In this document: positions 3,601-31,002 of the stretch, piece after piece
Layout of the letters: each line of letters starts with the position of its first letter
Position numbering within the stretch: position 1 is the first letter of the stretch
Program-made: the position numbers and the translations under genes
Notes under the pieces: generated by a model
The model's input: the letters and a program-made list of their open reading frames with translations, nothing else
The model's database searches: none
What the model was told of the DNA's origin: nothing
DNA from: Acidobacteriaceae bacterium
GTDB taxonomy: Bacteria; Acidobacteriota; Terriglobia; Terriglobales; Acidobacteriaceae
NCBI GenBank assembly: GCA_030038195.1
Contig: JASHPJ010000011.1
Location: 1 to 34,680 of the forward strand
Reading direction: 5' to 3'
DNA length: 34,680 nucleotides

Positions 3601-6600
3601 CCACGGAGACCATCGAGGCAATTGCCGTGGCCTCCGGCTATTCAAACAGCGCAGTAGCCAGCACAACGTACACCATCAATAATCCGACCGTCACCGCTAC
3701 GCCAGCCTTCGATCCTGTCGAAGGAGAATACGACTCGCTGATTTCCGTCACCATCACGGACACGACGCCGGAAGCAACCATATACTACACAACCGATGGC
3801 TCAACGCCGACGACCAGTTCCGCTGTCTACACAAGCGCCATCGCTGTCACGCCCCCCGAAATCCTTGAGGCAATCGCGACCGCCAAAGGTTACGGAAACA
3901 GCGCCGTCGCAATCGCAAAATACACCGTCAAGGAGCCCCTTGCCGCAACGCCGACATTCAAGCCTGCACCAGGGGTCTATCCCACCGCGCAATCCGTCAC
4001 AATCTCGGACTCGACGCCGGGCGCCGCCATCTATTACACCACCGATGGAACTCAACCCACCACGGCGTCTACCCCCTACGAAAGCCCGATTCCTGTTGGT
4101 CAGAGCACTACCATCAAGGCGTTTGCCACGGCCCCGGATTATGTCGACAGCAGCCTCGGGACGGCAGCATACGTGATCGAAATGCCTTACTACAATCTGC
4201 CTCCGGGGGGATCGGCCACCGGCGGCGCGATCGACCAGTTCGGCAACACCAATCCGGTGGTGGGGTCGGGACTCTCCTATCCCAGCGGTGTCTCCATAGA
4301 TGGCCAGGGCAACCTCTACTTTGGAAATGTGACCTTCAATCCCGTTCGCATCGATCTGATGGAGCGAACCACAGCCGGGGCGGTCACAGATCTCGGCAAC
4401 GTGCTCGACACCTCCGGTGGAACCATCCAAATCCTTCCCTCGGAGTTCAGCGTAGCAGCGGATCTCGCCGGCAACGTCTACTACATGACGCCGACCTGGA
4501 ACAGCTCGAATGGCACGGTGCCAGGTGCACTTTACAAGTTCGGAACCAAAGCTCCTCTGGTCAACAATCTGTCCTATCCAGCAGGCATCGCTACCGACTA
4601 CGCCGGCGATGTCTATTTCGCTAACCTCATAACCAGTCCGTTTCATGTGGAACTGATGGAGTACACCACTGACGGAGAGGTGAACGACCTGGGCACGATT
4701 TTTCAGACCTCGAGTGCGGTCGAGATAGGGGGTTGGGCTTTTGACCTCGCGGTAGACCCAAGCGGGAACGTTTACTATAACGTGCCAAGCACCGCAACGG
4801 GCAGCGCGCAGCCGAATGGCGCAATTATGCAATTCGTCGGCATCGGAGCAACCCCAATATCTATTGCACCGGACCTCGATCATCCGACCGGGCTCTCGAC
4901 AGACGTGTATGGCGACATCTTCTTCAACGATTTCAACTACGCGAAGGGGACTGTCGAACTTGAAGAGCTTCCCAGTGGAGGCACAGTCCAGCAACTCGGC
5001 CAGACCTACCAGGGTGGATTCCAACTGGGCCCGTGGGCTTTCGACGTAGTCGCTTTCCGGCCACCCACAGCAACCCCAGGATTCAGTCCCGTGCCGGGCA
5101 ACTACACGAAAATTCAGTCGGTCACGTTGTCTGACTCCACGCCAGGCGCCCAGATCTACTACAACATCAATGGCGCGAATCCGCCCACCACAAGTTCCAC
5201 CCTGTACACCGGTCCCATCGCGGTACTACAGTCTGAGACCATCAGCGCCATCGCGGTGTCAACCGGATATGTGCCCAGCAGCGTGGCCAACGGAACCTAC
5301 AACATTTACCCGCAGGCAGAGACCCCTGTCATTTCTCCGGCCGGGGGCACCTACACCTCGGTGCAGGCAGTAACGATCAGCGACGCCACGAGCGGAGCGA
5401 CGATCTACTACACGACTGACGGCTCGACGCCGAAGACTTCTTCCACCGAGTACACCGGACCCATTACGGTCGGCAGTTCGGAGACGATCAACGCGATTGC
5501 CGCAGCCACGGGCGATTCAAACAGCGCCGTGGCTAGCGCAACTTTCACCATCAATCTGCCAATTGCGGCTACGCCGACGTTTTCTCCTGCGGCGGGGACG
5601 TACACCTCGGCACAGACGGTAACGATTAGCGATACGACGAGCGGCGCGACGATTTATTACACGACCGATGGCTCAACTCCGACCGCCTCCTCAACCAAGT
5701 ACAGCGGGCCGATTACAGTCAGCAGCACGGAGACGGTCAGCGCCATTGCCACAGCCAGCGGTTACACGGCAAGCGCCGCAGCAATAGCCTCGTACACGAT
5801 CAATCTGCCGCCGGAACCGGTTGTCACACTTTCTCCCACGAGCCTTACCTTTGCCGCGCAGAACACCGGTTCCACCAGTACAGCGCAGACCGTAACGCTC
5901 ACCAATGGCGGTGCGGCTGCGTTGAGCATTGCGTCCATCGCCACATCCGGTGATTTTGCAGAGACCAATACCTGCGGATCGAGTGTGGCTGCCGCAGCGA
6001 GCTGCGCTATCTCGGTCACTTTCACCCCGACCGCAGGCGGAACACGCACCGGATCTCTAACCATCACCGACAACGCCAGTGGCTCTCCGCAGACCGTGTC
6101 GTTGAGCGGAACCGGCAGTACTGTGACGGAGTCATCTTCGCCCAATTCCTTGACCATCAGCTCCGCAGGCGGATCGGCAACCGACACGATTCAGCTTTCC
6201 TCTGCTGGCGGCTTCTCGGGAACGGTGAATCTGAGCTGCTCGGTCGCGTACAAAGGCTCGGGCACAGCCTCGGATGCGCCGACATGCACATTGAATCCAA
6301 CTCAGGCGCAGATTTCGTCGGGCTCTTCATCGAGTACAACGCTGACCGTCTCGACGACGGCGTCAAGTTCGGCGCGCCTTAACAATCCATTCCTGCCCTT
6401 GGGCGGCGGCGCGCTTGCCGCTGTGCTGATCTTCGTCGGAGTGCCGCGCCGCAGGTGGCGGGGCCTGAGCCTGGTGGTCATTCTGGGCATGGCGATTGCC
6501 GGAATGTGCATCGGATGCGGCGGCTCTGGCGGGAGCAGCGGCAACAACCCGCCTGCGAATCCCGGCACCACGACCGGCAACTATAGCGTGACCGTGACAG

Positions 6601-6653
6601 CGACAAGCGGAACCATGACAGCGTCCGTGTCCATTCCGCTTACAGTGCAATGA
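651..6653 (+). CDS. Giant secreted SBBP beta-propeller / chitobiase-C repeat / choice-of-anchor-D surface protein
   Basis: The 2000-residue product is a probable cell-surface or secreted adhesion/scaffold protein; its ligand is unknown. A signal peptide (about 1-30) is followed by the conserved N-terminal domain that precedes SBBP propellers (LSFEANQGQ near residue 55, YPGVDLVYYG near 165). SBBP-type propeller repeats span about 265-765. Five chitobiase/beta-hexosaminidase C-terminal repeats (IYYTTDGSTP signature) span about 766-1176. An NHL-like segment is at about 1180-1470, and three more chitobiase-C repeats reach about 1717. A choice-of-anchor-D/ASPM-SPD2-Hydin domain lies at about 1722-1823. 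The tail holds hydrophobic segments around 1905-1955 and a Cys/Gly/Ser-rich stretch. The start is supported by GGAGG (640-644) six bases ahead of ATG. The protein is very long, is repeat-built, and contains a G9 tract at 2762-2770. The domain order resembles secreted Acidobacteria proteins. The function is inferred. Confidence 0.9.
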   Translation: MRVIPRYALVLALFPIVVASTAGSQAVASASPSRSVLPAKQAAIAQDYGKLPLSFEANQGQADPQVRFLAHGRGYSLLLTGDKAVLVLHKPQKADAPAQANAHAVKADVIRMQLVGANPSPQIAGEQKLPGTANYFIGSDPSKWHSDVSTYAKVRYSNVYPGVDLVYYGNQGQLEYDFVVAPGADPESIRLSFAGAKKIKLGHDGNLRLLAGAGETQLRSPVIYQTMAGKRKPVDGHFRLLADGTTSFLLGEYDHSLPLVIDPVWVYVTYLGSTEGSQANSEINAIAVDASGNAYVTGYTDVSDFVTTPGAYLGYDPDPNNVSFVTKINPAGTALVYSTFLGGTGNTYGNGEGDLAESLAINSTGEVYVTGLTYSSDFPVTTGAFQTTNKAAGNSGLPAGFGATGFVTHLSADGSSLIYSTYLGGSSRDLPSSLALDTSNDAYIAGITFSADFPTTSGAFQTKNNSASNKNGWNAFVAKLNPSGSALEYSTYLGGSGENEISGGLGSICACALAVDGSGDAYIGLGNVQSTDFPVTSGVYQSSYPQNGAYPGVATLTELKPDGSGLVYSTYLFNASLGALALDSSGNVYIGGTTATGFPATTGAFQTAPAGDESEPAYVAKVNSTGTALVFATLLGGTTRDMDSVLGIALDSSGNSYLVGWTQSPNFPTTPDALVLTGAATSWSPFFTILNSDGSSLKFSTFLAGGGGFLGTDYGSGVALGTNGLVYIAGNGGLLGGGTLSPIGFMPECLDFGCPYVLEINLNEPTPAQTPTFSLASGTYASSVTVSIRDTTPNATIYYTTDGSTPTTSSTVYTGDLTINGTETVQAIATAPGFGTSAVASATYTITAATPTFSPAAGTYTSVQTVTISDATSGATIYYTTDGSTPTTSSTEYTGPITVSSSETISAIAVASGVLNSSVATATYTINLPAAATPAFSLAGGTYASTQTVTVSDATSGATIYYTTDGSTPTTSSAQYTGAITVASTETIEAIAVASGYSNSAVASTTYTINNPTVTATPAFDPVEGEYDSLISVTITDTTPEATIYYTTDGSTPTTSSAVYTSAIAVTPPEILEAIATAKGYGNSAVAIAKYTVKEPLAATPTFKPAPGVYPTAQSVTISDSTPGAAIYYTTDGTQPTTASTPYESPIPVGQSTTIKAFATAPDYVDSSLGTAAYVIEMPYYNLPPGGSATGGAIDQFGNTNPVVGSGLSYPSGVSIDGQGNLYFGNVTFNPVRIDLMERTTAGAVTDLGNVLDTSGGTIQILPSEFSVAADLAGNVYYMTPTWNSSNGTVPGALYKFGTKAPLVNNLSYPAGIATDYAGDVYFANLITSPFHVELMEYTTDGEVNDLGTIFQTSSAVEIGGWAFDLAVDPSGNVYYNVPSTATGSAQPNGAIMQFVGIGATPISIAPDLDHPTGLSTDVYGDIFFNDFNYAKGTVELEELPSGGTVQQLGQTYQGGFQLGPWAFDVVAFRPPTATPGFSPVPGNYTKIQSVTLSDSTPGAQIYYNINGANPPTTSSTLYTGPIAVLQSETISAIAVSTGYVPSSVANGTYNIYPQAETPVISPAGGTYTSVQAVTISDATSGATIYYTTDGSTPKTSSTEYTGPITVGSSETINAIAAATGDSNSAVASATFTINLPIAATPTFSPAAGTYTSAQTVTISDTTSGATIYYTTDGSTPTASSTKYSGPITVSSTETVSAIATASGYTASAAAIASYTINLPPEPVVTLSPTSLTFAAQNTGSTSTAQTVTLTNGGAAALSIASIATSGDFAETNTCGSSVAAAASCAISVTFTPTAGGTRTGSLTITDNASGSPQTVSLSGTGSTVTESSSPNSLTISSAGGSATDTIQLSSAGGFSGTVNLSCSVAYKGSGTASDAPTCTLNPTQAQISSGSSSSTTLTVSTTASSSARLNNPFLPLGGGALAAVLIFVGVPRRRWRGLSLVVILGMAIAGMCIGCGGSGGSSGNNPPANPGTTTGNYSVTVTATSGTMTASVSIPLTVQ
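2762..2770 (+). repeat. Nine-base poly-G tract inside the surface-protein gene
   Basis: Nine consecutive G residues, followed after AGG by six T, lie in frame in the SBBP region and encode part of a Gly-rich turn. A one-base length change would frameshift the gene after about 700 codons. Confidence 0.85.
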
Positions 6654-6772: not shown

Positions 6773-9442
6773 TCACCTAGAAGCCCGCACGGTTGCGGTT
6801 GCCGGTTCGGCTTTGAATTGCTCTGCTTTCTGCGGCTCGCCGAGCGCCGCGTAGGCGGCGGCGAGATCGCGTCGCGTGCCTTGAACCCAGCCTGAACCCG
6901 GATTCATCTGCTTGCTGAGTATCTGGTAGCCTGCCAGCGATTGCTCCACGGACGCACTGTATTTGTGGTCCTGGAGAAGCGCCATGCCGAGCCGCGCCCG
7001 CGCCATCCCCGTCTGGATGTTGCCGGCTCCAAGCGCGCGTGTGAAGCGGCCAATGACGTCCACAAGCATACTTTCGCATTTCGCATAACGACGTTCCGCC
7101 TGGTAGACGCTGGCGAGATTGCCCAGTGCAACAGCCACGCGATAGTCCCCGTCGCCGTAGGCTCGACGATAGATATCCGCAACCTGGGAGTCGTCTCTCT
7201 CCGCCGCCTGAAACTGCTTCTCACCCAGCTCGACCGACGCTGTTGCGTTGAGCACATAGGCGACCCGCGGATGCTGCGGGCCATAAACGCGTTCCTGAAT
7301 CGCGAGAGCGCGCTGAAGAAGTTTTCCCGCTTCGTCGTTCTTCTTCTCATACATAAGGGTGCTTGCCAGCGTGGTCAGCTTGCGCGCCGTCTCCGGATGA
7401 TCCGGCCCATACCATCTCTCCATGATCGCCAGCGCCTCCCGTTCGAGCGGCTCGGCCTGGGCATAGTAGCCGCGGACCTCCTGTGTCTGCGCCAGGTTCC
7501 CTAAATCTTCGGCGACGTGCGGATGAGTCTCGCCGTAAACAGCGCGGTCGATCATGAGTGCTCTCTGGTTGAGGGCATCGGCCGCGTCGTAGTTACCCGT
7601 GTAAATCTGCGCATCGGCGAGCTTACCCAACGCCCGCGCCAGTTCCGGCGAATGCGGCCCATCCGCGGCTTCTATGGTCTTCGCCGCATCTCCGAGCACA
7701 GGAGTAGCCTGCTTCTGTTCGCCGGCAGCGACCATCACTGTTCCCAGCGCCAACTCCGTTCGGCCAAGAAGAGGCTTATCGACGGGGGTGCGGCTCCGAA
7801 TTGCATCCAGCGACTGGCGCACGAGCTGCTCTGCCGCCCTGGTTTTGCCCTCGTCCGCGTACACGAGCCCCAGCGCAGTCTGGGCGCTCGCAATTCCAGC
7901 CGGGTCCTCATCCTGCAACGATTCCCGGTCTTTGAGCGCCTTTTGCAGCAGAGATTCGGCCTGGTCCAGCCGGCCTAATTTCTGCGAGAGCGTTCCCAGG
8001 GTCTGGTACAGGTCCGCCTGGATCAGCGGCTGGTTATGGAGCGTGCCGGCCAGTTGCACGCCGCGGTCAACCATCGCGGTGACAGGCAGGTCCGCCTCCG
8101 GACCGGCATCCTGGTCGCCGCCCTGGAGCAGGTTGTTCATGAAGCTCTGGATGTACCGCACGCGTGCCGCTTCGGCCACGGCATGGCTTCGTTCTTTCGC
8201 CAGCCGCCATGTGAAAAAGACCGCCATCGAGACGACCAGCAGCAGCGTTGCCGCAGAAGCCAGCACTGCTCGCCGGTATCGCCGTACAAATTTTCCCGTG
8301 CGATAGAGCAGCATTGCGGGTTGCGCGTCCAGGGGCTGATTGTTCAGGTAATGGTCGATGTCCCGAATCAGTGATTCGACAGAAGCATACCGCTGCCGCG
8401 GGTCCGGGTGCATCGCCGTAAGACAGAGTTTGTCCAGGTCTCTCCACTCCCATCGGGAAAGGCTCGGCTCAGGGCTGTCGGAGTTTCCTTGAACAACGGC
8501 TGCGGAAGGCTTTTCGGGAGGCCGGCGCCTGCTTTCATCCTCGGTGGAAACGGACGCCTGTGTGAGTTGCCTGTAAGGATGCCTGCCGGTGAGCGCCTCG
8601 TAGAGAATCACGCCGAGTGCGTATACGTCGGTATAGACGCCCACCTGGCCATCACTTTTCCATTCGGGCGCTGCATAGTCATACGACATGAACCGCAGGC
8701 CCGGACTTGTCGCGTCCACCGGCCCGTCGGCATTCTGCAACTGCCGCGCAATGCCAAAATCGACGATGCGGGGCGTCCCGTCCTTCGCCACAAGAATGTT
8801 GGAAGGCTTCAGGTCCCGGTGAATGATTCCCTGCAGATGCGCATGGAGTACCGCTTCACAGACTGAGCGAAAGAGCCGCAATCTTGCTTCGATAGAACGG
8901 CCAGGCAGGCGGCAATAGGTAGTAAATCGCATGCCCCGGATGTATTCCTCGACATAATCCATGACGAAAAACGGCGTTCCATCCTCCAAAGCGCCCGCAT
9001 CATGGAAACTGACGATGTAGGGATGCCGGAGTCGGGCGAGCGTATTGATCTCATCGGCGAAGCGCTTGCGCCGCATCTCCGGCAACTGGCCCTGCGGAAG
9101 CAGGAACTTGATCGCCATCGGCTGGCCTGTATCGGCGCGCAGGGCTTTCCAGACAGCGCCCATGCCGCCCCGGCCCAGAAACTCCTGGCGCTCGTACGGA
9201 CCGATCCTTTCGGGAGGGACATAAGCCGGAGAGTCTCCGAACACCTGATCAACGGCTTCGGCCACTCCGCGCCGGAGCCACGAAACGCCCCGCCGATCCT
9301 CGTCCAGCATGGCCAGCACTTCATTTTTGATCTCCGTGCTGCCATCGCAGGCTGCGTCCAGGAACACCAGCCTCTCTTCCACGGGGCGTTCGAGCACCGC
9401 GTGGAAGAGGTCCACGATCTTCGACCAGGCTGCGCCGTCCAT
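6773..9442 (-). CDS. Membrane-anchored Ser/Thr protein kinase with C-terminal TPR repeats
   Basis: The 889-residue kinase has an N-terminal helical region (1-60) typical of kinases paired with ECF sigma factors. The kinase domain spans about 83-365: Gly-rich loop GRGGMGAVW (90-98), Lys112, catalytic HRDLKPSN (208-215), DFG (228-230) and APE (258-260). One transmembrane helix (about 391-413) puts the kinase in the cytosol. The rest, about 430-880, is a tetratricopeptide array of the kinesin-light-chain type (AEPLEREALAI, AGKLLQRALAIQE), probably for protein-protein contacts. Its start lies 4 bp after the sigma factor stop, and no good Shine-Dalgarno is visible, so translation is probably coupled. 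The likely role is phosphorylation-based signalling with the linked sigma factor. The substrate is unknown. Confidence 0.93.
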   Translation of the reverse strand: MDGAAWSKIVDLFHAVLERPVEERLVFLDAACDGSTEIKNEVLAMLDEDRRGVSWLRRGVAEAVDQVFGDSPAYVPPERIGPYERQEFLGRGGMGAVWKALRADTGQPMAIKFLLPQGQLPEMRRKRFADEINTLARLRHPYIVSFHDAGALEDGTPFFVMDYVEEYIRGMRFTTYCRLPGRSIEARLRLFRSVCEAVLHAHLQGIIHRDLKPSNILVAKDGTPRIVDFGIARQLQNADGPVDATSPGLRFMSYDYAAPEWKSDGQVGVYTDVYALGVILYEALTGRHPYRQLTQASVSTEDESRRRPPEKPSAAVVQGNSDSPEPSLSRWEWRDLDKLCLTAMHPDPRQRYASVESLIRDIDHYLNNQPLDAQPAMLLYRTGKFVRRYRRAVLASAATLLLVVSMAVFFTWRLAKERSHAVAEAARVRYIQSFMNNLLQGGDQDAGPEADLPVTAMVDRGVQLAGTLHNQPLIQADLYQTLGTLSQKLGRLDQAESLLQKALKDRESLQDEDPAGIASAQTALGLVYADEGKTRAAEQLVRQSLDAIRSRTPVDKPLLGRTELALGTVMVAAGEQKQATPVLGDAAKTIEAADGPHSPELARALGKLADAQIYTGNYDAADALNQRALMIDRAVYGETHPHVAEDLGNLAQTQEVRGYYAQAEPLEREALAIMERWYGPDHPETARKLTTLASTLMYEKKNDEAGKLLQRALAIQERVYGPQHPRVAYVLNATASVELGEKQFQAAERDDSQVADIYRRAYGDGDYRVAVALGNLASVYQAERRYAKCESMLVDVIGRFTRALGAGNIQTGMARARLGMALLQDHKYSASVEQSLAGYQILSKQMNPGSGWVQGTRRDLAAAYAALGEPQKAEQFKAEPATATVRASR

Positions 9443-11735: not shown

Positions 11736-11843
11736 GAGCACAGCCCGATGAGCCGTGCAACTCCGCGCCCCATCTTGTCGTCCGCCGCGGCGGATTGTCC
11801 GTCGACAGGATGGGAATGCATCCCCATCCCGGCCACATTCGTC

Positions 11844-23822: not shown

Positions 23823-25469
23823 ATGAGTCCAGCGTGCCGACGTTTGGCTGCCGTTGTGGCGGCGGCTTTGCTGCTGTTGCCTGTTGCGATGCGAGCAGAC
23901 GATGAGAAACCCGCGGCCAAGGCTGCGGCGACAGACAAATCTGCGGAGAGCGCTCCGCCCGCCGACTCGACCACCGAGGGCACTGTGGATGCAGGCGGAC
24001 AGCACATTGCGTATACCGCTACTGCCGGCATCCTCACGGTAGGCGCGACCGATGCGCAGGACGCGCAACTGGGCATGGACGGAAAGCCGTTGCCGGGTTC
24101 GCAGCTTGCGATCTCTGCGCCGAAAGACCCGGCGGATGCCCCGCCCGTGGCGCGGATGTTCTATGTGGCATATTTCAAAAAGGACGCACAGCCTGAGGAC
24201 CGGCCGATTACCTTCTTCTATAACGGCGGGCCGGGTAGCTCGACGGTGTGGCTGCATATGGGATCGCTGGGACCCAAGCACGTGGTGACGGATAGCGACC
24301 AGCACCTGCCGGCAGCGCCCTACAAGCTGGAGGACAATGCCGAGACACTGCTGGACGTAAGCGACCTGGTGTTTATCGATGCGCCGGGGACGGGGTTCGG
24401 ACGGCTGATCGGCAAGGATGCCGACAAAGCATTCCTGGGCGTGGACGAGGATGGCGGCGCATTTGCGCGGTTCATCGCCCGATTCATTACCAGGTATGGG
24501 CGCTGGAACTCGCCGAAGTTCATCTTTGGCGAGAGCTATGGGACGACGCGGTCCGCGGTGCTGGCCAAGATGCTGGAAGACAGGAAGTCGATCGATCTGA
24601 ATGGCGTGATTCTGCTGTCGCAGATCTTCAACTTCAGCGTGTTTCTCGACGGGGCCGAAGGCAATCCGGGCGTGGACCTGCCCTATGAGCTGGCGCTGCC
24701 CACGTATGCAGCAACGGCGTGGTATCACAAGAAGCTTTCGCCGGAGCCGCCAGCGCTGGAGCCTTTCCTGAAGGAAGTGGAAGAGTATGCGATGGGTCCG
24801 TATGCGCATGCGCTGGCCGAGGGCACGGACCTGGGCGATGCGGAAAAGCAGGCGGTCGCCGAAAAGCTGCACGACTATACCGGGCTGCCGGTGGCGTACT
24901 TCATCAAGGCCCGCTTGCGTGTGGACGGCGGCGAGTTCGAGAAAAACTTTGAGGATGCCGAGGACCTGACAACGGGCCGCTACGACACGCGGTTTACGGG
25001 GCCGACCATCGATCCGCTGAGCAAAGAGGCGGATTACGATCCGCAGAGCGCAGCGATCTCGTCTGCGTATGTTTCGCTGCTAAACGACTACATGCGGAAG
25101 ACACTGAAGTACGGCGCAGGGCAGACGTATCTGCCGGACATCGATGTGTGGGGCGGCGGAACGCACTGGGACTTCAGGCATGGCGACAATCCTCTGAACC
25201 TGAATGTGTCCAGCGACCTGGCCGATGCGATGAAGACGAATCCGCGGCTGAAGGTAATGCTGAACGGCGGCTACTACGACCTGGCTACGCCGTTTTTCGA
25301 AGCACAGTATGAAGAAAAGCATCTGCCGATTCCGCAGTCGCTGGCCAAAAACATCCAGTATGACTGGTATGAGTCAGGGCACATGGTCTACGTGCGGAGC
25401 GAGTGCCTGAAACAACTGCACGACCGGGTGGCCGCGTTTATCAAAAGCGCGTCGGGCGGGTCGCAGTAG
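23823..25469 (+). CDS. Secreted S10 serine carboxypeptidase-like protein
   Basis: About 548 residues, with a signal peptide (about 1-25) followed by an Ala/Lys/Asp-rich linker. The alpha/beta-hydrolase S10 features are the oxyanion loop NGGPGSSTVW (134-143), the nucleophile Ser238 in GESYG, a late Asp in GYYDLATPF and His in ESGHMVYV. It removes C-terminal residues from peptides outside the cytosol. GGAG eight bases before the ATG at 23823 decides the start over TTG at 23805. It follows the M19 peptidase in the same direction, so both may act in peptide scavenging. A -10-like TATACT lies at 23780. Confidence 0.92.
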   Translation: MSPACRRLAAVVAAALLLLPVAMRADDEKPAAKAAATDKSAESAPPADSTTEGTVDAGGQHIAYTATAGILTVGATDAQDAQLGMDGKPLPGSQLAISAPKDPADAPPVARMFYVAYFKKDAQPEDRPITFFYNGGPGSSTVWLHMGSLGPKHVVTDSDQHLPAAPYKLEDNAETLLDVSDLVFIDAPGTGFGRLIGKDADKAFLGVDEDGGAFARFIARFITRYGRWNSPKFIFGESYGTTRSAVLAKMLEDRKSIDLNGVILLSQIFNFSVFLDGAEGNPGVDLPYELALPTYAATAWYHKKLSPEPPALEPFLKEVEEYAMGPYAHALAEGTDLGDAEKQAVAEKLHDYTGLPVAYFIKARLRVDGGEFEKNFEDAEDLTTGRYDTRFTGPTIDPLSKEADYDPQSAAISSAYVSLLNDYMRKTLKYGAGQTYLPDIDVWGGGTHWDFRHGDNPLNLNVSSDLADAMKTNPRLKVMLNGGYYDLATPFFEAQYEEKHLPIPQSLAKNIQYDWYESGHMVYVRSECLKQLHDRVAAFIKSASGGSQ

Positions 25470-25563
25470 AGCGTGTTTCAAAAATGGACTCTGTAACAGG
25501 GCACAAGGGGGCTCTGTTACAGGACACGACTTCAAACCTGCCCTGAGCCTGCCGAAGGGTGCT

Positions 25564-25590
25564 GCCCCTCCATAAAATCAGGGGCTTTCT
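25564..25590 (+). terminator. Intrinsic terminator-like hairpin after the S10 peptidase
   Basis: GCCCCT (25564-25569) and AGGGGC (25580-25585) form a 6-bp stem with a 10-base loop, followed by TTTCTT. The T-tract is short, so this is moderate evidence for a transcript end. Confidence 0.45.
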
Positions 25591-25592
25591 TG

Positions 25593-25649
25593 ATTGCTGC
25601 ATAAAGAATGTCCGGTTGTCATCCTGAGTCCCCCCTTTTATGCAGCAAT
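25593..25649. repeat. 13-bp inverted repeat enclosing a GTCATCCTGAG core
   Basis: ATTGCTGCATAAA (25593-25605) and TTTATGCAGCAAT (25637-25649) are perfectly complementary and enclose 31 bases, including GTCATCCTGAG (25618-25628). The layout, inverted ends around the repeat core, matches the element at 27195-27331 with different end sequences and no internal variable hairpin. Confidence 0.65.
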
Positions 25650-25919
25650 TTGGACGTATCTGTCCACGGAAAAGGATGAAAAGCGCTGGAATAAGGATGA
25701 AGCTCACCGCCTGCCAACAACCTCGCTCCCGGAGGGAGCCATCGAAGTGAGCCCAGGGTGGAGTCCGGCGCGGCGGGCCGAAGATCCGCCCGTAGCGAAG
25801 CACCCGTTTTCGCGCCGGGGTCGAGCTTTGCCCGGGATGCAGCCATTTAGATAAATCGTTTTCTAAGAGATATTTGCCGGTCTGCTGGCGGATTTTTGCA
25901 GAGGTGCTGCTGATTTTTG

Positions 25920-25948
25920 TTGCAATGTATTGCGGATTGCGATATAAC
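25920..25948 (+). promoter_or_regulatory. Promoter of the XRE-NfeD-flotillin-PspA operon, with direct repeats
   Basis: TTGCAA (25920-25925) and TATAAC (25943-25948) are separated by 17 bases, a good sigma70-type match. ATTGCGAT occurs at 25936-25943 and again at 25950-25957, flanking and overlapping the -10, with a related ATTGCGG just before. These direct repeats could be operator half-sites for the regulator encoded next. Confidence 0.6.
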
Positions 25949-25967
25949 TATTGCGATCTGCGATGGA

Positions 25968-26567
25968 ATGGCGGCGAAGAAACGAATCCGGTTCGAGGAT
26001 GGACAGGAAAGAGCAGAGATGAAGCTGGGAGAAAAAATCCGGTATCTGCGCGAGGTGGAGGGAAGTTTGCGCGGGCTGGGGCGGGCGATGAGCCAGCTTG
26101 AGCTGGTGCGGGCCATCGAGGCGGAGACGAGGTCGAAGCTGAGCCAGAGTTACCTGTCGCAGATCGAGTCCGGCGCGCGGCCGCACCTGACGAATACCAC
26201 GCGGCAGACGCTGGCGGCGTTTTTCAAGGTGCATCCCGGCTACCTGGTGGACGATCCGGAGGGCTACTCGCCGGAGCTGCAGAGTGAGCTGCGCAACATG
26301 GAGGACAAGCTGGACCTGTGGCTGATCTCGGGCGCCGAGCGGTTCCGGCGCGACCCGGAGCTGAAGCAGGCGCTGCTGACGCTGGCCCAGCATGAGCACT
26401 CGCGGGAGTGCCTGCTGCTGCTCGAGGCGATTATGGAGACGCCGGGACTGATGCCGCGGCTGGCCGAAGTGCTGAGGCCGAAAAGCGGCGGCCAGGAATC
26501 GGGGAATCCTGCACCGGCCAGGGAACAGCAGAGAGTGCGCGGCAGGAAAGTGGGTGTACGCAGATGA
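25968..26567 (+). CDS. XRE-type helix-turn-helix regulator
   Basis: The conserved part starts at MKLGEKIRYLRE (ATG 26019, giving 182 residues). An earlier ATG at 25968 adds 17 residues. Both start codons lie after the promoter at 25920-25948. The Cro/CI-type helix-turn-helix covers about residues 1-75 from 26019, with the recognition region LSQSYLSQIESGARP and a loop before it longer than usual. The C-terminal half (TLAQHEHSRECLLLLEAIM) is helical, perhaps for dimerisation. It leads an operon with membrane-microdomain genes and overlaps the next start by ATGA. It may repress or activate its own promoter through the ATTGCGAT repeats. Confidence 0.8.
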   Translation: MAAKKRIRFEDGQERAEMKLGEKIRYLREVEGSLRGLGRAMSQLELVRAIEAETRSKLSQSYLSQIESGARPHLTNTTRQTLAAFFKVHPGYLVDDPEGYSPELQSELRNMEDKLDLWLISGAERFRRDPELKQALLTLAQHEHSRECLLLLEAIMETPGLMPRLAEVLRPKSGGQESGNPAPAREQQRVRGRKVGVRR

Positions 26568-27157
26568 CATGGGCGTCGTTTTACCTGGTCTGCTTTCTGG
26601 TTGGACTGATGCTGAGCGCGGTGTCGCTGCTGGGCGGCATGGGGCATTTTGGCGGGCATGTGCATATTCTGCACGTGCCGCACACGGCGCATATCCCGCA
26701 TGGCGCGGGACTGAAGGCTGTGTCGGGCGCAACGGTCCCGTGGTGGAATGCATTTTCGCTCACCGTATTTCTGTGCTGGTTTGGTGCGGCGGGCTATCTG
26801 CTCACGCGCCATGGGAGCCTTGTGGCCGCGGTCGTGCTGGTGCTGGCGGCTGTCTGCGGCGTGATCGGGGGGGCACTCGTGTTTCTGTTTCTGACGCGCG
26901 TCCTGCTGCCGCATGAGAAAGAGCTGACGGCGGACGAGACGGATGTGGTGGGCGCAGTGGGGCGCATCTCCATGCCCATTCGCGTGGGCGGAACGGGCGA
27001 GTTGGTGTATGAGCAACTGGGCGCGGTGCGGTCAGCGCCGGCGCGGTCAGAGGATGGATCGGCGATTGGCAGGCAGGAAGAGGTGTTCGTGGTGCGGTAT
27101 GAGAAGGGCATTGCGTATGTGCGGCGGTGGGAGGAAGCTGCAGGGAACGGGGAATAG
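26564..27157 (+). CDS. NfeD/YuaF-like membrane protein
   Basis: The 197-residue protein has two or three membrane helices (about 3-25, 60-77 and 83-108), a His-rich extracytoplasmic loop (HFGGHVHILHVPHTAHIPHG), and a C-terminal OB-fold-like domain (about 125-190; VVGAVGRISMPIRVGGTGEL, VFVVRYEKGIAYVRRWE) like that of NfeD/YuaF. In Bacillus, YuaF is encoded with flotillin and shares membrane microdomains. Flotillin follows here after the small ORF. The start overlaps the regulator stop (ATGA). The family assignment rests on topology, the C-terminal pattern and context. Confidence 0.75.
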   Translation: MTWASFYLVCFLVGLMLSAVSLLGGMGHFGGHVHILHVPHTAHIPHGAGLKAVSGATVPWWNAFSLTVFLCWFGAAGYLLTRHGSLVAAVVLVLAAVCGVIGGALVFLFLTRVLLPHEKELTADETDVVGAVGRISMPIRVGGTGELVYEQLGAVRSAPARSEDGSAIGRQEEVFVVRYEKGIAYVRRWEEAAGNGE

Positions 27158-27194
27158 GGAGCAGTTTTTCGCATGAGAACGACGATGCTCTCTA

Positions 27195-27331
27195 GTGTCC
27201 TGAGTCTGAAGTTCGCATCATGAATACGCTGTCATCCTGAGCGTAGCAAGCCGCGTTTTTGCGGCTTGCGGAGTTGCAGGATCTGCGGTTGCTTTTTGCA
27301 AATGGTGCCAGGAACTTCAGACTCAGGACAC
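27195..27331. mobile_element. MITE-like element with perfect 20-bp inverted ends
   Basis: GTGTCCTGAGTCTGAAGTTC (27195-27214) and its exact reverse complement (27312-27331) bound 137 bp. Inside are the core GTCATCCTGAGCG (27231-27243), the perfect 9-bp hairpin GCAAGCCGC/GCGGCTTGC (27246-27269), and GGATCTGCGGTTGC (27279-27292). It encodes no transposase, and no clear target duplication is seen. A partial second copy (left end plus core) lies at 258-375. It sits between the NfeD-like gene and the small membrane ORF. Confidence 0.75.
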
Positions 27332-27359
27332 GAAAGACTGGTGGATGAGTTGGAGGTAT

Positions 27360-27476
27360 ATGACGGACCAGACGATGCTGATTACGAATATGGCAGTGCT
27401 GGCAGGGATTTTTCTTGTCGGGCTGCTGGCGAAGATGTTTCCGCGCAATGGGCGCAAGTCCGGCTCGCGGGAATGA
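27360..27476 (+). CDS. Small single-pass membrane protein (38 residues)
   Basis: An ATG at 27360 opens a 38-codon frame with a polar N-terminus (MTDQTMLITN), one hydrophobic helix (MAVLAGIFLVGLLAKMF) and a basic C-terminus (PRNGRKSGSRE). GGAGG ends three bases before the ATG, which is strong but unusually close. It lies between the NfeD-like and flotillin genes on the same strand and so would be co-transcribed. No family is recognised. The topology suits a small membrane partner of the microdomain proteins. It is too short for routine gene finders. Confidence 0.6.
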   Translation: MTDQTMLITNMAVLAGIFLVGLLAKMFPRNGRKSGSRE

Positions 27477-27551
27477 GATGACGGCAATCCCCAAGACGAT
27501 GGACGGAACCAATCAACGGTTAAGCTCTCGGAAGAAAGGACCGGGAAGGCG

Positions 27552-29000
27552 ATGATGAACGTAATTTCGAGTGACGTTGTTCTGTATGCAGGACTCGCAG
27601 GGCTGGTGCTGATCATCATCCTTGGCATTCTGGCCAGGATGTATCGCAAGGCGGGGCCGAATGAGGCATTGATCGTGTACGGGTTTCGCGGGCCGCGGGT
27701 GATCAAGGGCCATGGCACGGTGATCTTTCCCATGGTAGAGAACTGCCGCGAGCTGAGCCTGGAGTTGATGAGCTTCGACGTGGCGCCGCAACAGGACCTA
27801 TACACCAAGCAGGGCGTAGCGGTGACGGTGGAGGCCGTGGCGCAGATCAAGGTACGCAGCGATCAGCAATCGATTTTGACCGCGTCCGAGCAGTTTTTGA
27901 CCAAGGCGCCGCCGCAGCGGGAAGGGCTGATCCGTCTGGTGATGGAAGGCCACCTGCGCGGAATCATCGGGCAGTTGACGGTAGAGCAGATTGTGAAGGA
28001 GCCGGAGATGGTGGGCGATCGCATGCGCTCCACCTGCGCGGACGACATGAGCAAGATGGGCCTCGAGGTGATCTCGTTCACGATCAAGGAAGTGCGTGAC
28101 AAGAACGAGTACATCTCCAACATGGGCCGGCCGGATGTGGCGCGCATCAAGAGAGACGCCGACGTGGCGACGGCTGAAGCCGAGCGCGATACCGCGATTC
28201 AGCGTGCCAATGCGCAGCGCGAGGCCGCAGTGGCCAGGGCGCAGGCTGACCAGGATCGGGTGATTGCCGAGACCGCGTCCCAGGCGCGGCAGGCCGAGGC
28301 GCAGCGCGACCTCGACATCAAAAAGGCGCAGTTTGCCGAGCAGAGCCGCCGCCAGCAGGCGCAGGCCGACAAAGCCTATGAGTTGCAGACCAACGTGATG
28401 CAGCAGCAGGTGATGGCCGAGCAGGTGAAGGTGCAGCAGGTGGAGAAGGAGGGCCAGATCAAGGTGCAGGAGGCCGAGATTCAGCGCCATGAGAAGGAGC
28501 TCATCGCCACGGTGCTGAAGGGCGCGGAGATCGAGCGGCAGAGGATCGAGAACCTAGCGGAGGCGGAGAAGGCGCGGCTGCAGACAGAAGCCGAAGGCCG
28601 CGCGGCTGCGATTCGCGCGCAGGGCGAGGCTGAGGCCGCCATCATCTTCCAGAAGGGCGAGGCGGAAGCGAAGGCCATGAACGTGAAGGCCGAGGCTTAC
28701 CAGGAGTGGAACCAGGCGGCGGTGGTGGACAAGCTGCTGACCAACCTGGCCGATGTGGTGCGCGCCATGGCCGAGCCGCTGGCCAAGGTGGACAAGATCA
28801 CCATCGTGTCCACGGGTGGAGACGGCGCTGCCGGCGTGAACAAGATCACCGGCGACATGACGAAGATTGCGGCGCAGGTTCCGGCGCTGTTTGAGGCGCT
28901 GAGCGGAATGGACATCAAGCAGTTGATGTCCAACGTGCGGGCGATCCGGCAGAAGCCGGAACAGAACGGCGGCGATCCGCAGAATGGGTCGGCGAGTTAG
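27552..29000 (+). CDS. Flotillin family protein (SPFH/Band 7)
   Basis: The 482-residue protein has an N-terminal membrane helix (about 11-31), the SPFH domain (about 32-205; ALIVYGFRGPRVIKGHGTVIFP in part, then QQDLYTKQGVAVTVEAVAQI), and a long coiled coil (about 205-400) rich in Glu-Ala repeats (EAEGRAAAIRAQGEAEAAI). The C-terminus (EPLAKVDKITIVSTGGDG) is like that of YuaG/FloT. Flotillins oligomerise as scaffolds in ordered membrane domains. The start is ATG 27552 or the next ATG at 27555, with GGGAAGG just upstream. It sits between the small membrane ORF and a PspA-like gene. Such NfeD-flotillin pairing is typical. Confidence 0.95.
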   Translation: MMNVISSDVVLYAGLAGLVLIIILGILARMYRKAGPNEALIVYGFRGPRVIKGHGTVIFPMVENCRELSLELMSFDVAPQQDLYTKQGVAVTVEAVAQIKVRSDQQSILTASEQFLTKAPPQREGLIRLVMEGHLRGIIGQLTVEQIVKEPEMVGDRMRSTCADDMSKMGLEVISFTIKEVRDKNEYISNMGRPDVARIKRDADVATAEAERDTAIQRANAQREAAVARAQADQDRVIAETASQARQAEAQRDLDIKKAQFAEQSRRQQAQADKAYELQTNVMQQQVMAEQVKVQQVEKEGQIKVQEAEIQRHEKELIATVLKGAEIERQRIENLAEAEKARLQTEAEGRAAAIRAQGEAEAAIIFQKGEAEAKAMNVKAEAYQEWNQAAVVDKLLTNLADVVRAMAEPLAKVDKITIVSTGGDGAAGVNKITGDMTKIAAQVPALFEALSGMDIKQLMSNVRAIRQKPEQNGGDPQNGSAS

Positions 29001-29037
29001 AGAGTCTGCGGTTCGTGCCGGGTGCAGTTTGCAGGTT

Positions 29038-29083
29038 CCCACCCTTTCGTCTGAATCCGCCGCGGCGGAGCCGAAAGGGTGGG
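29038..29083. repeat. Two-part palindrome between the flotillin and PspA genes
   Basis: CCCACCCTTTCG (29038-29049) pairs perfectly with CGAAAGGGTGGG (29072-29083). Between them lies the perfect palindrome TCCGCCGCGGCGGA (29056-29069). In RNA this is a very stable stem that could slow the polymerase, protect the flotillin transcript 3' end or tune PspA expression. The outer arms look like a dispersed repeat. No T-tract follows. Confidence 0.7.
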
Positions 29084-29113
29084 TCACGGGGCTTGGTGGG
29101 ACAGGAGGGAAGT

Positions 29114-29785
29114 ATGTCATTGCTGGAGAGAGTGAGCACGTTGCTGCGGGCCAATCTGAACGATCTGGTGGAGAAGGCGGAAGATCCGGAGCGGATGTTG
29201 AAACAGATTGTGCTGGACATGGAGAACCAGTTGCTGCAGGTAAAGACGCAGGTAGCAATTGCCATTGCGGACGAGCATCTGCTGGAAAAAAAGCGCGCCG
29301 AGCAGGAGCAGCATGTGGCCGAATGGCGGCGCAAGGCGGAGTTGGCAGTGCAGAAGGGCCACGACGACCTGGCGCGCGGCGCGCTGGAGCGCGTATTGAG
29401 CCACGAGCAGTTGGCCGCCGGCTTCAAGCTGCAGGCCGAGGACCAGAAGCATGAGGCCGACAGCCTTCGCCAGGCGCTGCACAAGCTGGAGCAGAAGCTG
29501 AACGAGACGCGCGCACACTGCGAGATGCTGGTGGCCGAGCACCGGCGCGCCAGGATTGTGGGCCGCGCGACCAAGGCGCGGCAGGCCGTGGGCAATGGGC
29601 AGGAGGCCGCGCTGAACCGGATGAAGAGCAAGGTGCATGTGCAGGCTGCCGAAAATGCCGCGGCCAGCGAGCTGCTGGCTCCGGAGACGCTGGAAGACAA
29701 GTTCCAGGCGCTCGAAAGCGAAGACCGCGTGGAAGCGCTGCTGAACGAGATCAAGAGCCGGCAGGTGGAGCAGAAGACGGCGTAG
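29114..29785 (+). CDS. PspA/IM30 family membrane-stress protein
   Basis: The 223-residue protein is almost wholly alpha-helical coiled coil, typical of PspA/Vipp1: SLLERVSTLLRANLNDLVEKAEDPERML at the amphipathic N-terminus (shown in part: LLRANLNDLVEKAEDPERML), then IVLDMENQLLQVKTQVA and the long helical hairpin. Such ESCRT-III-like proteins bind stressed inner membranes and maintain integrity and proton-motive force. AGGAGG four bases before the ATG at 29114 fixes the start. It is the last gene of the regulator-NfeD-flotillin operon and ends 2 bp from the convergent DUF763 gene. No PspF, PspB or PspC is seen, so control is probably through the operon's own regulator. Confidence 0.93.
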   Translation: MSLLERVSTLLRANLNDLVEKAEDPERMLKQIVLDMENQLLQVKTQVAIAIADEHLLEKKRAEQEQHVAEWRRKAELAVQKGHDDLARGALERVLSHEQLAAGFKLQAEDQKHEADSLRQALHKLEQKLNETRAHCEMLVAEHRRARIVGRATKARQAVGNGQEAALNRMKSKVHVQAAENAAASELLAPETLEDKFQALESEDRVEALLNEIKSRQVEQKTA

Positions 29786-29787
29786 CT

Positions 29788-31002
29788 TCAGAAGAGATTG
29801 AGCTGGCCGCTCGCGGGTTTTCTGGCGGACGTGGGTTTGTCGTCGAAGACGGTTTGGCCGCCGAGCGAAGGTGAGATGCGGCGCTCATGTGCGACTGCGG
29901 CTGCGAAGTCGGCGAGTGGATCACGATCTTCTTCGACGGCGCGGGTGAGGCGGTCGAGGCGGCGGAAGCCTTCCATCTTTTCGCTGTGATCGAAGCGCGC
30001 GGCGTCGAGCGAGCGCCGCAGCACGCCGAGCGAGTCGTCGTAGGTTTTGAGCGGAACGGGAAAGGGATGGCCGTCTTTGCCGCCATGCGCGAAAGAGAAA
30101 CGCGCGGGATCGGAGAAGCGCGCCGGCGCTCCGTGCACGACTTCTGCAATGAGCGCGAGCGACTGCAGGGTGCGCGGGCCCAGGCCTTCCAGCAGCAGCA
30201 GCGATGCGAAGTCGCGCAGCTCCTGCTCGTGCGCGACGGCAAGGACTGCGCCCAGGCGCTTGAGATCGACGTCGGCGGGGCGCACATCGTGATGCGCGGG
30301 CATGATGAGTTTGCGCGCTTCCTGTAGATTGGTTTCGACCGGCTCGCGGACAAGGTCGAGTAGCGCCTGCTGTGCGCGGGATGCGCGTGCGTCCACTAAA
30401 TTCAAAATTATGCCCTGCGGCTGGCCGTGGATGGCGGTGTGCGGATTGGAGACGAAATCGCGCACAGCGGCGGAGTGCCAGTGGTAGCGGCGCGCCAGGC
30501 GATTCTGTTCGTTCATGCCCTGCTGCACAACGGCCCATTCTCCTGAGCGATGAATCACGAAGGCGTGCAGGTAGAGCTGGAAGCCGTCGGCGATGGCGTT
30601 GTTGTCGACCCGCGCGGTGAGGCGGCTGATGCGCGCGAGCGCTTTGCCGTCAAGGCCGGTTTGTGCGGCGAAGGCGCGCAGTTCGTCGGGCGTTCTACGG
30701 GAATGGCGGCCGCGGCCTCCGCAGATAGTAAAGCCGAGATCGGAGAAGCACGGGTTGAGTCCGCGCTTGAGCGCGCCCATCACCGAGGTGGTGATGCCGG
30801 AGGAGTGCCAGTCCATGCCCATCACGCAGCCGAGAGCCTGGAACCAGAACGGATCGCTCAGGCGGGTGAGGAATGCAGAGGGGCCGTAGATCTCGACGAT
30901 GTGCCTGGCGATCGCCGTGCCGAGTCGCGTCATGCGCTCGCCCAGCCAGGCGGGAACGCGTCCACCGTGGAGCGGGAGGTCGGCTGTACCGGAGCGCTTC
31001 AT
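29788..31002 (-). CDS. DUF763 domain protein
   Basis: The 404-residue protein carries the DUF763 hallmark at its N-terminus (MKRSGTADLPLHGGRVPAWL) and the conserved LGCVMGMDWHSSGITTSV and FSDLGFTICGGRGRHSRR. A helix-hairpin-helix-like segment (LLLEGLGPRTLQSLALI, about 268-284) hints at nucleic-acid binding. The C-terminus ends FDDKPTSARKPASGQLNLF. The family is known mainly from archaea and thermophiles and has no established function. The frame opens at 31074, but the ATG at 31002 begins the family consensus, with AGAGGT immediately upstream (very short spacing). It has no operon partner. Confidence 0.9.
   Translation of the reverse strand: MKRSGTADLPLHGGRVPAWLGERMTRLGTAIARHIVEIYGPSAFLTRLSDPFWFQALGCVMGMDWHSSGITTSVMGALKRGLNPCFSDLGFTICGGRGRHSRRTPDELRAFAAQTGLDGKALARISRLTARVDNNAIADGFQLYLHAFVIHRSGEWAVVQQGMNEQNRLARRYHWHSAAVRDFVSNPHTAIHGQPQGIILNLVDARASRAQQALLDLVREPVETNLQEARKLIMPAHHDVRPADVDLKRLGAVLAVAHEQELRDFASLLLLEGLGPRTLQSLALIAEVVHGAPARFSDPARFSFAHGGKDGHPFPVPLKTYDDSLGVLRRSLDAARFDHSEKMEGFRRLDRLTRAVEEDRDPLADFAAAVAHERRISPSLGGQTVFDDKPTSARKPASGQLNLF

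Follow-up and report, generated by a model that had tools for sequence, protein, structure and literature searches.

A conserved regulator-NfeD-flotillin-PspA operon of Acidobacteriota with a tandem operator and a putative dedicated repressor

Background

Flotillins and PspA are widespread membrane-care proteins, and the signals to which they respond are poorly understood. What kind of system is formed when both are encoded side by side, and what controls it? We addressed this question at a locus of an Acidobacteriaceae bacterium, within a stretch of 34,680 nucleotides (contig JASHPJ010000011.1 of assembly GCA_030038195.1), hereafter called the window. All coordinates refer to the window and, unless stated otherwise, to its + strand. 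The host genome measures 4.17 Mb and is 97.5% complete. Inside 25920-29785 lie five genes, all on the + strand, which encode a helix-turn-helix (HTH) regulator, an NfeD protein, a 38-residue membrane protein, a flotillin and a PspA protein. An earlier note, made from the letters alone, had described these genes as a candidate membrane-stress operon. Coordinates, families and folds bear out the five-gene, operon-like set, and a membrane-stress role, judged from the families involved, is still the likeliest reading. More specifically, we favour a membrane-maintenance operon of Acidobacteriota that combines NfeD, flotillin and PspA and is autoregulated through a repressor dedicated to it, and we give this reading a probability of about two in three (0.66).

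The tandem operator and its regulator

The element on which this reading turns was first seen in an alignment of upstream regions from the genus and two further genomes, where one block is conserved and its surroundings are not. The block follows a TATTGCAA-N-TTGCAATA-like consensus of 17 bp that occurs twice in tandem. In the window, the -35 element TTGCAA (25920-25925) and the -10 element TATAAC (25943-25948), which begins 17 bases past the -35, can be read directly. Site 1 (TATTGCGGATTGCGATA, 25928-25944) lies in the spacer between them and site 2 (TATTGCGATCTGCGATG, 25949-25965) over the expected transcription start, at a distance of 21 bp from centre to centre. Both sites are conserved in relatives. 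The earlier note had spoken of direct repeats. The repeated block stands, whereas its direct-repeat nature does not: the two copies are tandem imperfect palindromes inside the promoter, with 5/8 and 4/8 base pairs complementary.

The promoter TTGCAA-17-TATAAC (25920-25948) scores 9/12. A generic scan found no sigma-70-like promoter in 25300-29900 and missed this one too, because it requires a T at the last -10 position. Relatives agree with the 17-base spacing that the earlier note had proposed. Among 93 scored upstream regions, the best -35 is TTGACA, TTGACG or TTGACT in 53, a TTGAC-like sequence stands 8 bases 5' of site 1 in 61, and a 17-base spacer scores best in 71, with ties settled toward 17.

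To count the operator we scanned 130 bases in 102 non-redundant upstream regions, that of the window included and excluding L174 and L215, whose contigs start less than 80 bases 5' of the regulator. A tandem site scoring at least 28/34 is present in 94 of the 102; the maximum in 2,040 mononucleotide shuffles was 26. When six of the eight remaining regions were rescanned over 320 bases, four scored 32-34, which brings the total to 98/102. A regulator-like site therefore heads the operon nearly throughout, as had been supposed. The sites are 4 bases apart in 88/94 upstream regions and 5 bases apart in 6/94. T3, C6 and G12 never vary in either copy (94/94), and A2, A15 and T16 hardly do. The ATG of the regulator overlaps the end of site 2 in 26/94 upstream regions (L115, L117, L197, L204, L231 and others), so the transcript there should be leaderless or nearly so.

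We then searched for the tandem, allowing at most three mismatches, in 35 genomes that each carry the regulator or the flotillin. It occurs in 28 of them, at a single place each, and all 28 places adjoin the regulator (coordinates compared by hand). A reversed control pattern gave no tandem match in the same genomes. In the 4.17 Mb of the host, site 1 is the sole zero-mismatch match to TATYRCRNNTTGCRATA, and a single-site search with up to two mismatches returned 38 matches versus 17 for the control pattern. Since the tandem has a single place per genome, always next to the regulator, the regulator looks dedicated to its own operon and is probably a repressor. The layout is that of a dedicated autorepressor, to which the protein would conform if it binds both sites.

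The regulator (26019-26567, 182 residues) belongs with XRE/EspR-like HTH proteins. A start at TTG 25917 was rejected: homology in most orthologues begins at the ATG at 26019. Matches in L034 and L037 extend further upstream than 26019. Searched against the PDB at E 0.1, the profile of the regulator matches EspR only (best E 1e-6), with a similarity that covers the HTH, residues 26-91. In Foldseek, EspR chains occupy ranks 1 to 13, with a best E of 7e-3 for a moderate model (predicted local distance difference test, pLDDT, 70); they are followed by other Cro/XRE repressors, including DdrO and SinR.

EspR of Mycobacterium resembles the regulator in its HTH region by profile and in its sites, and it ranks first among the fold matches. 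The consensus of EspR from chromatin immunoprecipitation sequencing is TTTGC[TC][GA], and EspR controls its own gene through a pair of sites at its promoter (PMC3315491). The half-sites of the window operator contain TTGC, and there are again two sites at the regulator's own promoter. The difference lies in reach. EspR is described as a nucleoid-associated protein with 165 loci, whereas here we find one tandem operator per genome in 28/35 genomes, beside weaker single sites. Because of these 165 loci and this nucleoid-associated behaviour it would not be fair to call the protein an EspR; it is fair to say that it appears to work like EspR at its own promoter.

Activator sites are usually found 5' of the -35 element. 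Here both sites lie within the core promoter, one in the spacer and one just past the -10, and the tandem is found at a single place per genome, all of which speaks against activation. We therefore regard activation, or a dual mode of control, by the EspR-like protein as unlikely. The idea is not without precedent: ClgR, which heads a mycobacterial pspA operon, was an activator in earlier work. For ClgR, PMC11237479 speaks of repressors. EspR itself activates espACD from sites far away and, under some conditions, reduces its own expression too (PMC3315491).

Conservation of the gene order

The NfeD gene (26564-27157, 197 residues) starts before the regulator stops (26564 versus 26567), and the small gene (27360-27476) and the flotillin gene (27552-29000, 482 residues) follow. 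The flotillin carries the SPFH/Band_7 domain (Pfam PF01145, E 5e-29) and the flotillin C-terminal region (Flot, PF15975, E 1e-7), both over cut-off, and reaches 321 bits with the NCBIfam FloT model, under its cut-off of 700. A search of the host genome returned this flotillin and one weak band-7 match. The last gene (29114-29785, 223 residues) encodes the only PspA/IM30 protein found in the genome. It matches Pfam PspA_IM30 (PF04012, E 9e-39) over cut-off and the NCBIfam PspA equivalog model with 116 bits, under its 243-bit cut-off. As expected of a Psp system, the PspA/IM30 protein is linked in its operon to a regulator and to membrane partners.

Is this order kept elsewhere? A scan of genome contigs returned 292 regulator relatives. 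We kept the best 80, all of which bear titles of Acidobacteriota or its subgroups; some are the same contigs as 14 places first read around flotillin matches. Adjacency was scored only where the contig was long enough, and gaps of up to 1,300 bp were allowed between flotillin and PspA. Under these conditions the regulator adjoins NfeD at 74/74 testable loci, NfeD adjoins flotillin at 66/66 and flotillin adjoins PspA at 56/56. The conservation across relatives on which the earlier note had made its proposal depend is thus present. The close genomes give the same picture. Flotillin matches occur in 50/60 of them, mostly weak, and regulator, NfeD, flotillin and PspA stand in order at 12 of the 14 places read. 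At the two others, the contig starts within the flotillin, with PspA present and no regulator (L044), or the flotillin is about 33% identical and accompanied by none of the other operon genes (L045).

Among 297 genomes of the phylum, the regulator is found at E 1e-15 in 23 and a flotillin at E 1e-40 in 88. The 22 top-scoring flotillins reach E 3e-245 or better and all fall within the 23 regulator-bearing genomes; the next one drops to 3e-116. The four genes are in order at 20 of 22 loci from this survey. Distribution of the system is patchy: in the family, 18 of 31 listed genomes carry the regulator, and some complete genomes are without it.

Conserved order also bears on whether the genes form a single operon or two units, regulator-NfeD and flotillin-PspA, the latter with its own start. 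Such a split would find room in the gaps. Between nfeD and the small gene lies a 149-bp element (27189-27337) with 26-nt inverted-repeat ends (92%) and a terminator-like stem at 27272-27290. Between flotillin and pspA, a gap of 113 bp holds a repeat-like inverted repeat with 15-nt arms (93%; 29038-29083), and 14 relatives have gaps above 400 bp there. Against two units, the 149-bp element is missing from the same gap in all five aligned relatives, the order is kept at every testable adjacency, and the promoter scan described above returned nothing in 25300-29900, even though it also missed the conserved promoter. We consider a division into two units improbable.

The 149-bp element has relatives at about 40 places of the genome, often reduced to the left 50-100 bases. 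Of 123 candidates 40 were scored, which gave 47 matches; many are partial and some represent the same place twice. Because, among 20 copies read, L047 alone besides the window copy shows both arms, the label of miniature inverted-repeat transposable element (MITE) would be a guess. One more arm-like sequence is found at 256-274. A perfect 13-nt inverted repeat (ATTGCTGCATAAA) at 25593-25649, 5' of the operon, encloses a TCATCCTGAG stretch that resembles one in the 149-bp element. The 29038-29083 repeat has 11 matches in the host genome including itself, which are diverged copies, one of them at 11763-11816.

The gap between flotillin and pspA accommodates other sequences as well. Five of 12 relatives (L033, L034, L037, L038 and L039) have an extra gene of about 210-270 codons there, which encodes a DUF2059 protein in the three examined (L174, which is the L033 contig, L037 and L038). 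L035 has a 150-codon open reading frame (ORF) in this position, with no Pfam match. In several metagenome assemblies a gene of the operon is broken over two reading frames, namely flotillin in L169, L173, L176 and L194 and PspA in L197 and L239, either by assembly error or by decay.

The small protein and the leader hairpin

The small gene encodes a protein of 38 residues with a single hydrophobic stretch that resembles the N-terminus of flotillin. A separate small gene is present in 18 of 72 loci with readable NfeD and flotillin, and all 18 belong to the 25 loci whose regulators are closest. Among 79 genomes of the genus, 23 carry the gene; in L178, which belongs to the same genus, none was found. 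The protein is under selection. Over 19 sequences, the pooled ratio of nonsynonymous to synonymous variation (pN/pS) is 0.32 and pN is lower than pS in 171/171 pairs. Entropy by codon position is 0.59, 0.38 and 1.21, with the third position most variable. A chance ORF was rejected on this pattern of codon variation.

Where does such a protein come from? Its profile aligns with the flotillin N-terminus (hhalign probability 96.9, E 1.9e-10). When run over 79 whole genus genomes at E 0.001, the profile gave 40 matches, which are 23 small genes and 17 flotillin starts. Seven of these starts were verified against flotillin coordinates; the other ten were judged by position (47-264 bases 3' of the small gene) and by frame (95-510 residues). 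Since nothing else was hit at this threshold, the likeness is not the generic one between transmembrane helices, and a look-alike of any such helix was rejected as an explanation. In a tree built on 49 sequences, all small proteins cluster together (support 100); the tree is unrooted and based on a short alignment of 34 residues. At the DNA level, leader and start of the small gene and of flotillin resemble each other more than in any of 300 shuffles in 7 of 10 loci; the window, L035 and L039 do not exceed the shuffles, and leaders alone exceed them in 2/10 loci. The small gene is probably a duplicated flotillin 5' end. Its narrower distribution suggests that the copy went from flotillin to the small gene.

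The flotillin leader of these loci contains a hairpin, which in the window (27526-27546) has a stem of 6 bp and a Shine-Dalgarno-like GAAAGGA in a 9-nt loop. It is present in 18/18 flotillin leaders at loci that have the small gene and in 5/54 at loci that lack it. These five were first picked by hand, and the script used then favours hairpin-bearing starts; a scan of all 54 gave the same five. The small-gene leader carries the hairpin in 9/18 loci, the leaders of the other three genes in 0/51, and random stretches in 33/9,000 with a tighter pattern and 148/9,000 with a looser one. In the window, the small-gene leader is without it, perhaps because a repeat element sits there. The strict pattern, with zero mismatches, has 8 matches in 7/15 genomes, every one in this operon; the variant stems in G002 and G009 escape it. 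We accordingly rejected a general genome motif. A CsrA site was set aside: many loops have GGG rather than GGA, and CsrA itself was not searched for.

In 11 leaders from the genus, 94% of the cells pair in the stem, and shifting the stem partner by 1-3 columns cuts pairing to 23-61%. One stem pair changes from G-C to U-A in three related sequences. Covariation is modest: three cells are changed on both sides, a value equalled in 3/500 shuffles. There is no excess in the number of stem pairs changed on both sides (one; 307/500 shuffles as high) or in further types of stem pair (five; 246/500 as high).

Given its probable origin, the 38-residue ORF could also be a duplication remnant, a translation leader or spurious. 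It does resemble the flotillin 5' end, is confined to a quarter of the loci (18/72, and not in L178) and sits in a gap that tolerates insertions. The selection described above, the retention of its own Shine-Dalgarno hairpin in half of the loci and its presence in 23 of the genus genomes argue against a non-working ORF, and we find this possibility quite doubtful.

The NfeD protein

The NfeD protein of the window has no Pfam match, and 5 of 13 aligned members match NfeD weakly (best 0.0034). Taken by itself, this would argue against the assignment, and it is overturned by the fold. The structure model consists of three long N-terminal helices, probably transmembrane, and a C-terminal five-stranded, OB-like barrel. 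Its best PDB match in Foldseek is YuaF of Bacillus subtilis (2k14, E 2.6e-5), followed by QmcA-YbbJ of Escherichia coli (8z5g). As in known NfeD-SPFH pairs, the gene adjoins an SPFH gene. Between the first two helices lies the His-rich loop that the earlier note had pointed out (26645-26701), with seven His in residues 28-46. H32 and H34 are invariant in 13/13 members.

That the operon answers metal stress, with this loop binding metal and signalling to the regulator, is very improbable: the two invariant His would suit it, and a membrane-spanning course of all three helices together with a cytosolic barrel like that of Staphylococcus (PMC11222466) would put the loop in the cytosol, but loop length and His number vary, the loop of L040 is His-poor, and Pfam places no metal-handling family among the five genes.

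Other features of the window

Two large genes lie elsewhere in the window. On the - strand, 6773-9442 encodes a Ser/Thr protein kinase domain followed by many TPR repeats. A protein of 2,000 residues at 651-6653 has a DUF7948/SBBP start and eight chitobiase C-terminal-like repeats.

Proposed mechanism

We propose that the EspR-like regulator binds the two palindrome-like sites, two helical turns apart, and represses its own operon. Perturbation of the membrane would lift this repression. The likeliest route of release would be capture of the regulator at the membrane by a product of the operon, by analogy with PspF-PspA, where PspA holds the regulator. NfeD and flotillin would form a scaffold on the cytoplasmic face, to which PspA would be brought to support the bilayer. 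For the first of these contacts there is a parallel in Staphylococcus, where NfeD reportedly touches flotillin and has a cytosolic barrel (PMC11222466). For the second, the SPFH protein YdjI is needed for membrane localisation of PspA in B. subtilis (PMC8581546), and the operon may follow the same principle. In the closest relatives, the copied flotillin 5' end would have given rise to a membrane protein of 38 residues in its own right, which would take its place between the flotillin anchors and modulate the assembly.

Several observations weigh against this reading. Two upstream regions (L176 and L236) have no full tandem pair even within 320 bases and two more (L133 and L134) none within 130 bases; L133 also gave no PspA match in the stretch read, and L134 has just the regulator and a weak flotillin match. 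The operator count is not blind, because the pattern was composed after the relatives had been inspected. Seven of the 35 genomes gave no tandem match (G008, G014, G057, G142, G267, G287 and G343); in G008 (compare L171) the spacing is 5 bases, outside the search pattern, and in G014 the contig ends. The regulator matches Pfam HTH_3 at E 6e-4, under the Pfam cut-off, its model is of moderate quality and no PDB fold match reaches E 0.001. EspR, with its many loci, is unlike a regulator of one site. Finally, the 149-bp element and the 29038-29083 repeat might affect expression between the genes and split the transcript.

A bolder version of the autorepressed operon can be formulated, which we hold only tentatively. 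The small protein could be a free-standing copy of the flotillin anchor, accompanied in half of the loci by a copy of the leader hairpin, that inserts into the assembly, whether to cap it, to space it or to compete within it, and whose translation keeps pace with that of flotillin; the EspR-type repressor with its one target would meanwhile sense the state of that assembly.

A regulator with, to the extent of the genome scan, a single target site and with a sharp operator, kept across several families of the phylum, offers a direct handle on these proteins. A short promoter fragment could report which stress induces the system, and the operator makes orthologous systems easy to locate. The small protein, being anchor-like, lends itself to probing what sets the size of flotillin assemblies, and it suggests a route from the 5' end of a gene to a new membrane peptide.

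Comparison with known systems

The pairs YuaF-FloT of B. subtilis and YbbJ-QmcA of E. coli share with the operon an NfeD protein and its SPFH partner, and the NfeD fold matches both YuaF and YbbJ. To our knowledge, these pairs have neither PspA nor an EspR-like regulator.

The pspA-ydjGHI operon of B. subtilis likewise joins PspA and an SPFH protein with membrane partners (PMC8581546). As described there, it differs in being controlled by sigma W, in having no NfeD or HTH gene and in that YdjI has no membrane anchor.

Mycobacterial clgR-pspA-pspM-pspN is similar in its regulator, since ClgR has a Cro-like HTH (PMC11237479). An XRE regulator in a PspA operon is therefore not unusual, contrary to what the earlier note had supposed. 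The likeness to ClgR is one of description only, and the operon as described lists neither flotillin nor NfeD; the main text of that paper contains no word beginning with 'acidobacter'.

The closest system is the network of Popp et al. 2022, in view of which the claim that the gene set was not described has to be given up. In that study, 11 of 19 PspA genes of Acidobacteriota adjoin a band7_Flot gene, NfeD is named as a partner and HTH regulators occur in PspA operons (PMC9239133). The network is a domain-based consensus, and its main-text passages have no operator, identity of the HTH protein, small protein or leader hairpin (PMC9239133). Among open-access titles we found none on the operator, the EspR link, the small protein or the hairpin, in a search that covered neither the operator sequence itself nor supplements. 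The gene set is real, conserved and of a described kind, with three features for which we found no description, namely the link between operator and regulator, the small protein and the hairpin. In its composition it belongs with the network of Popp et al. 2022: the phylum, the four protein families and the idea of an operon are the same (PMC9239133), and the present locus, read from gene order, brings HTH, NfeD, band7_Flot and pspA genes together in one acidobacterial genome.

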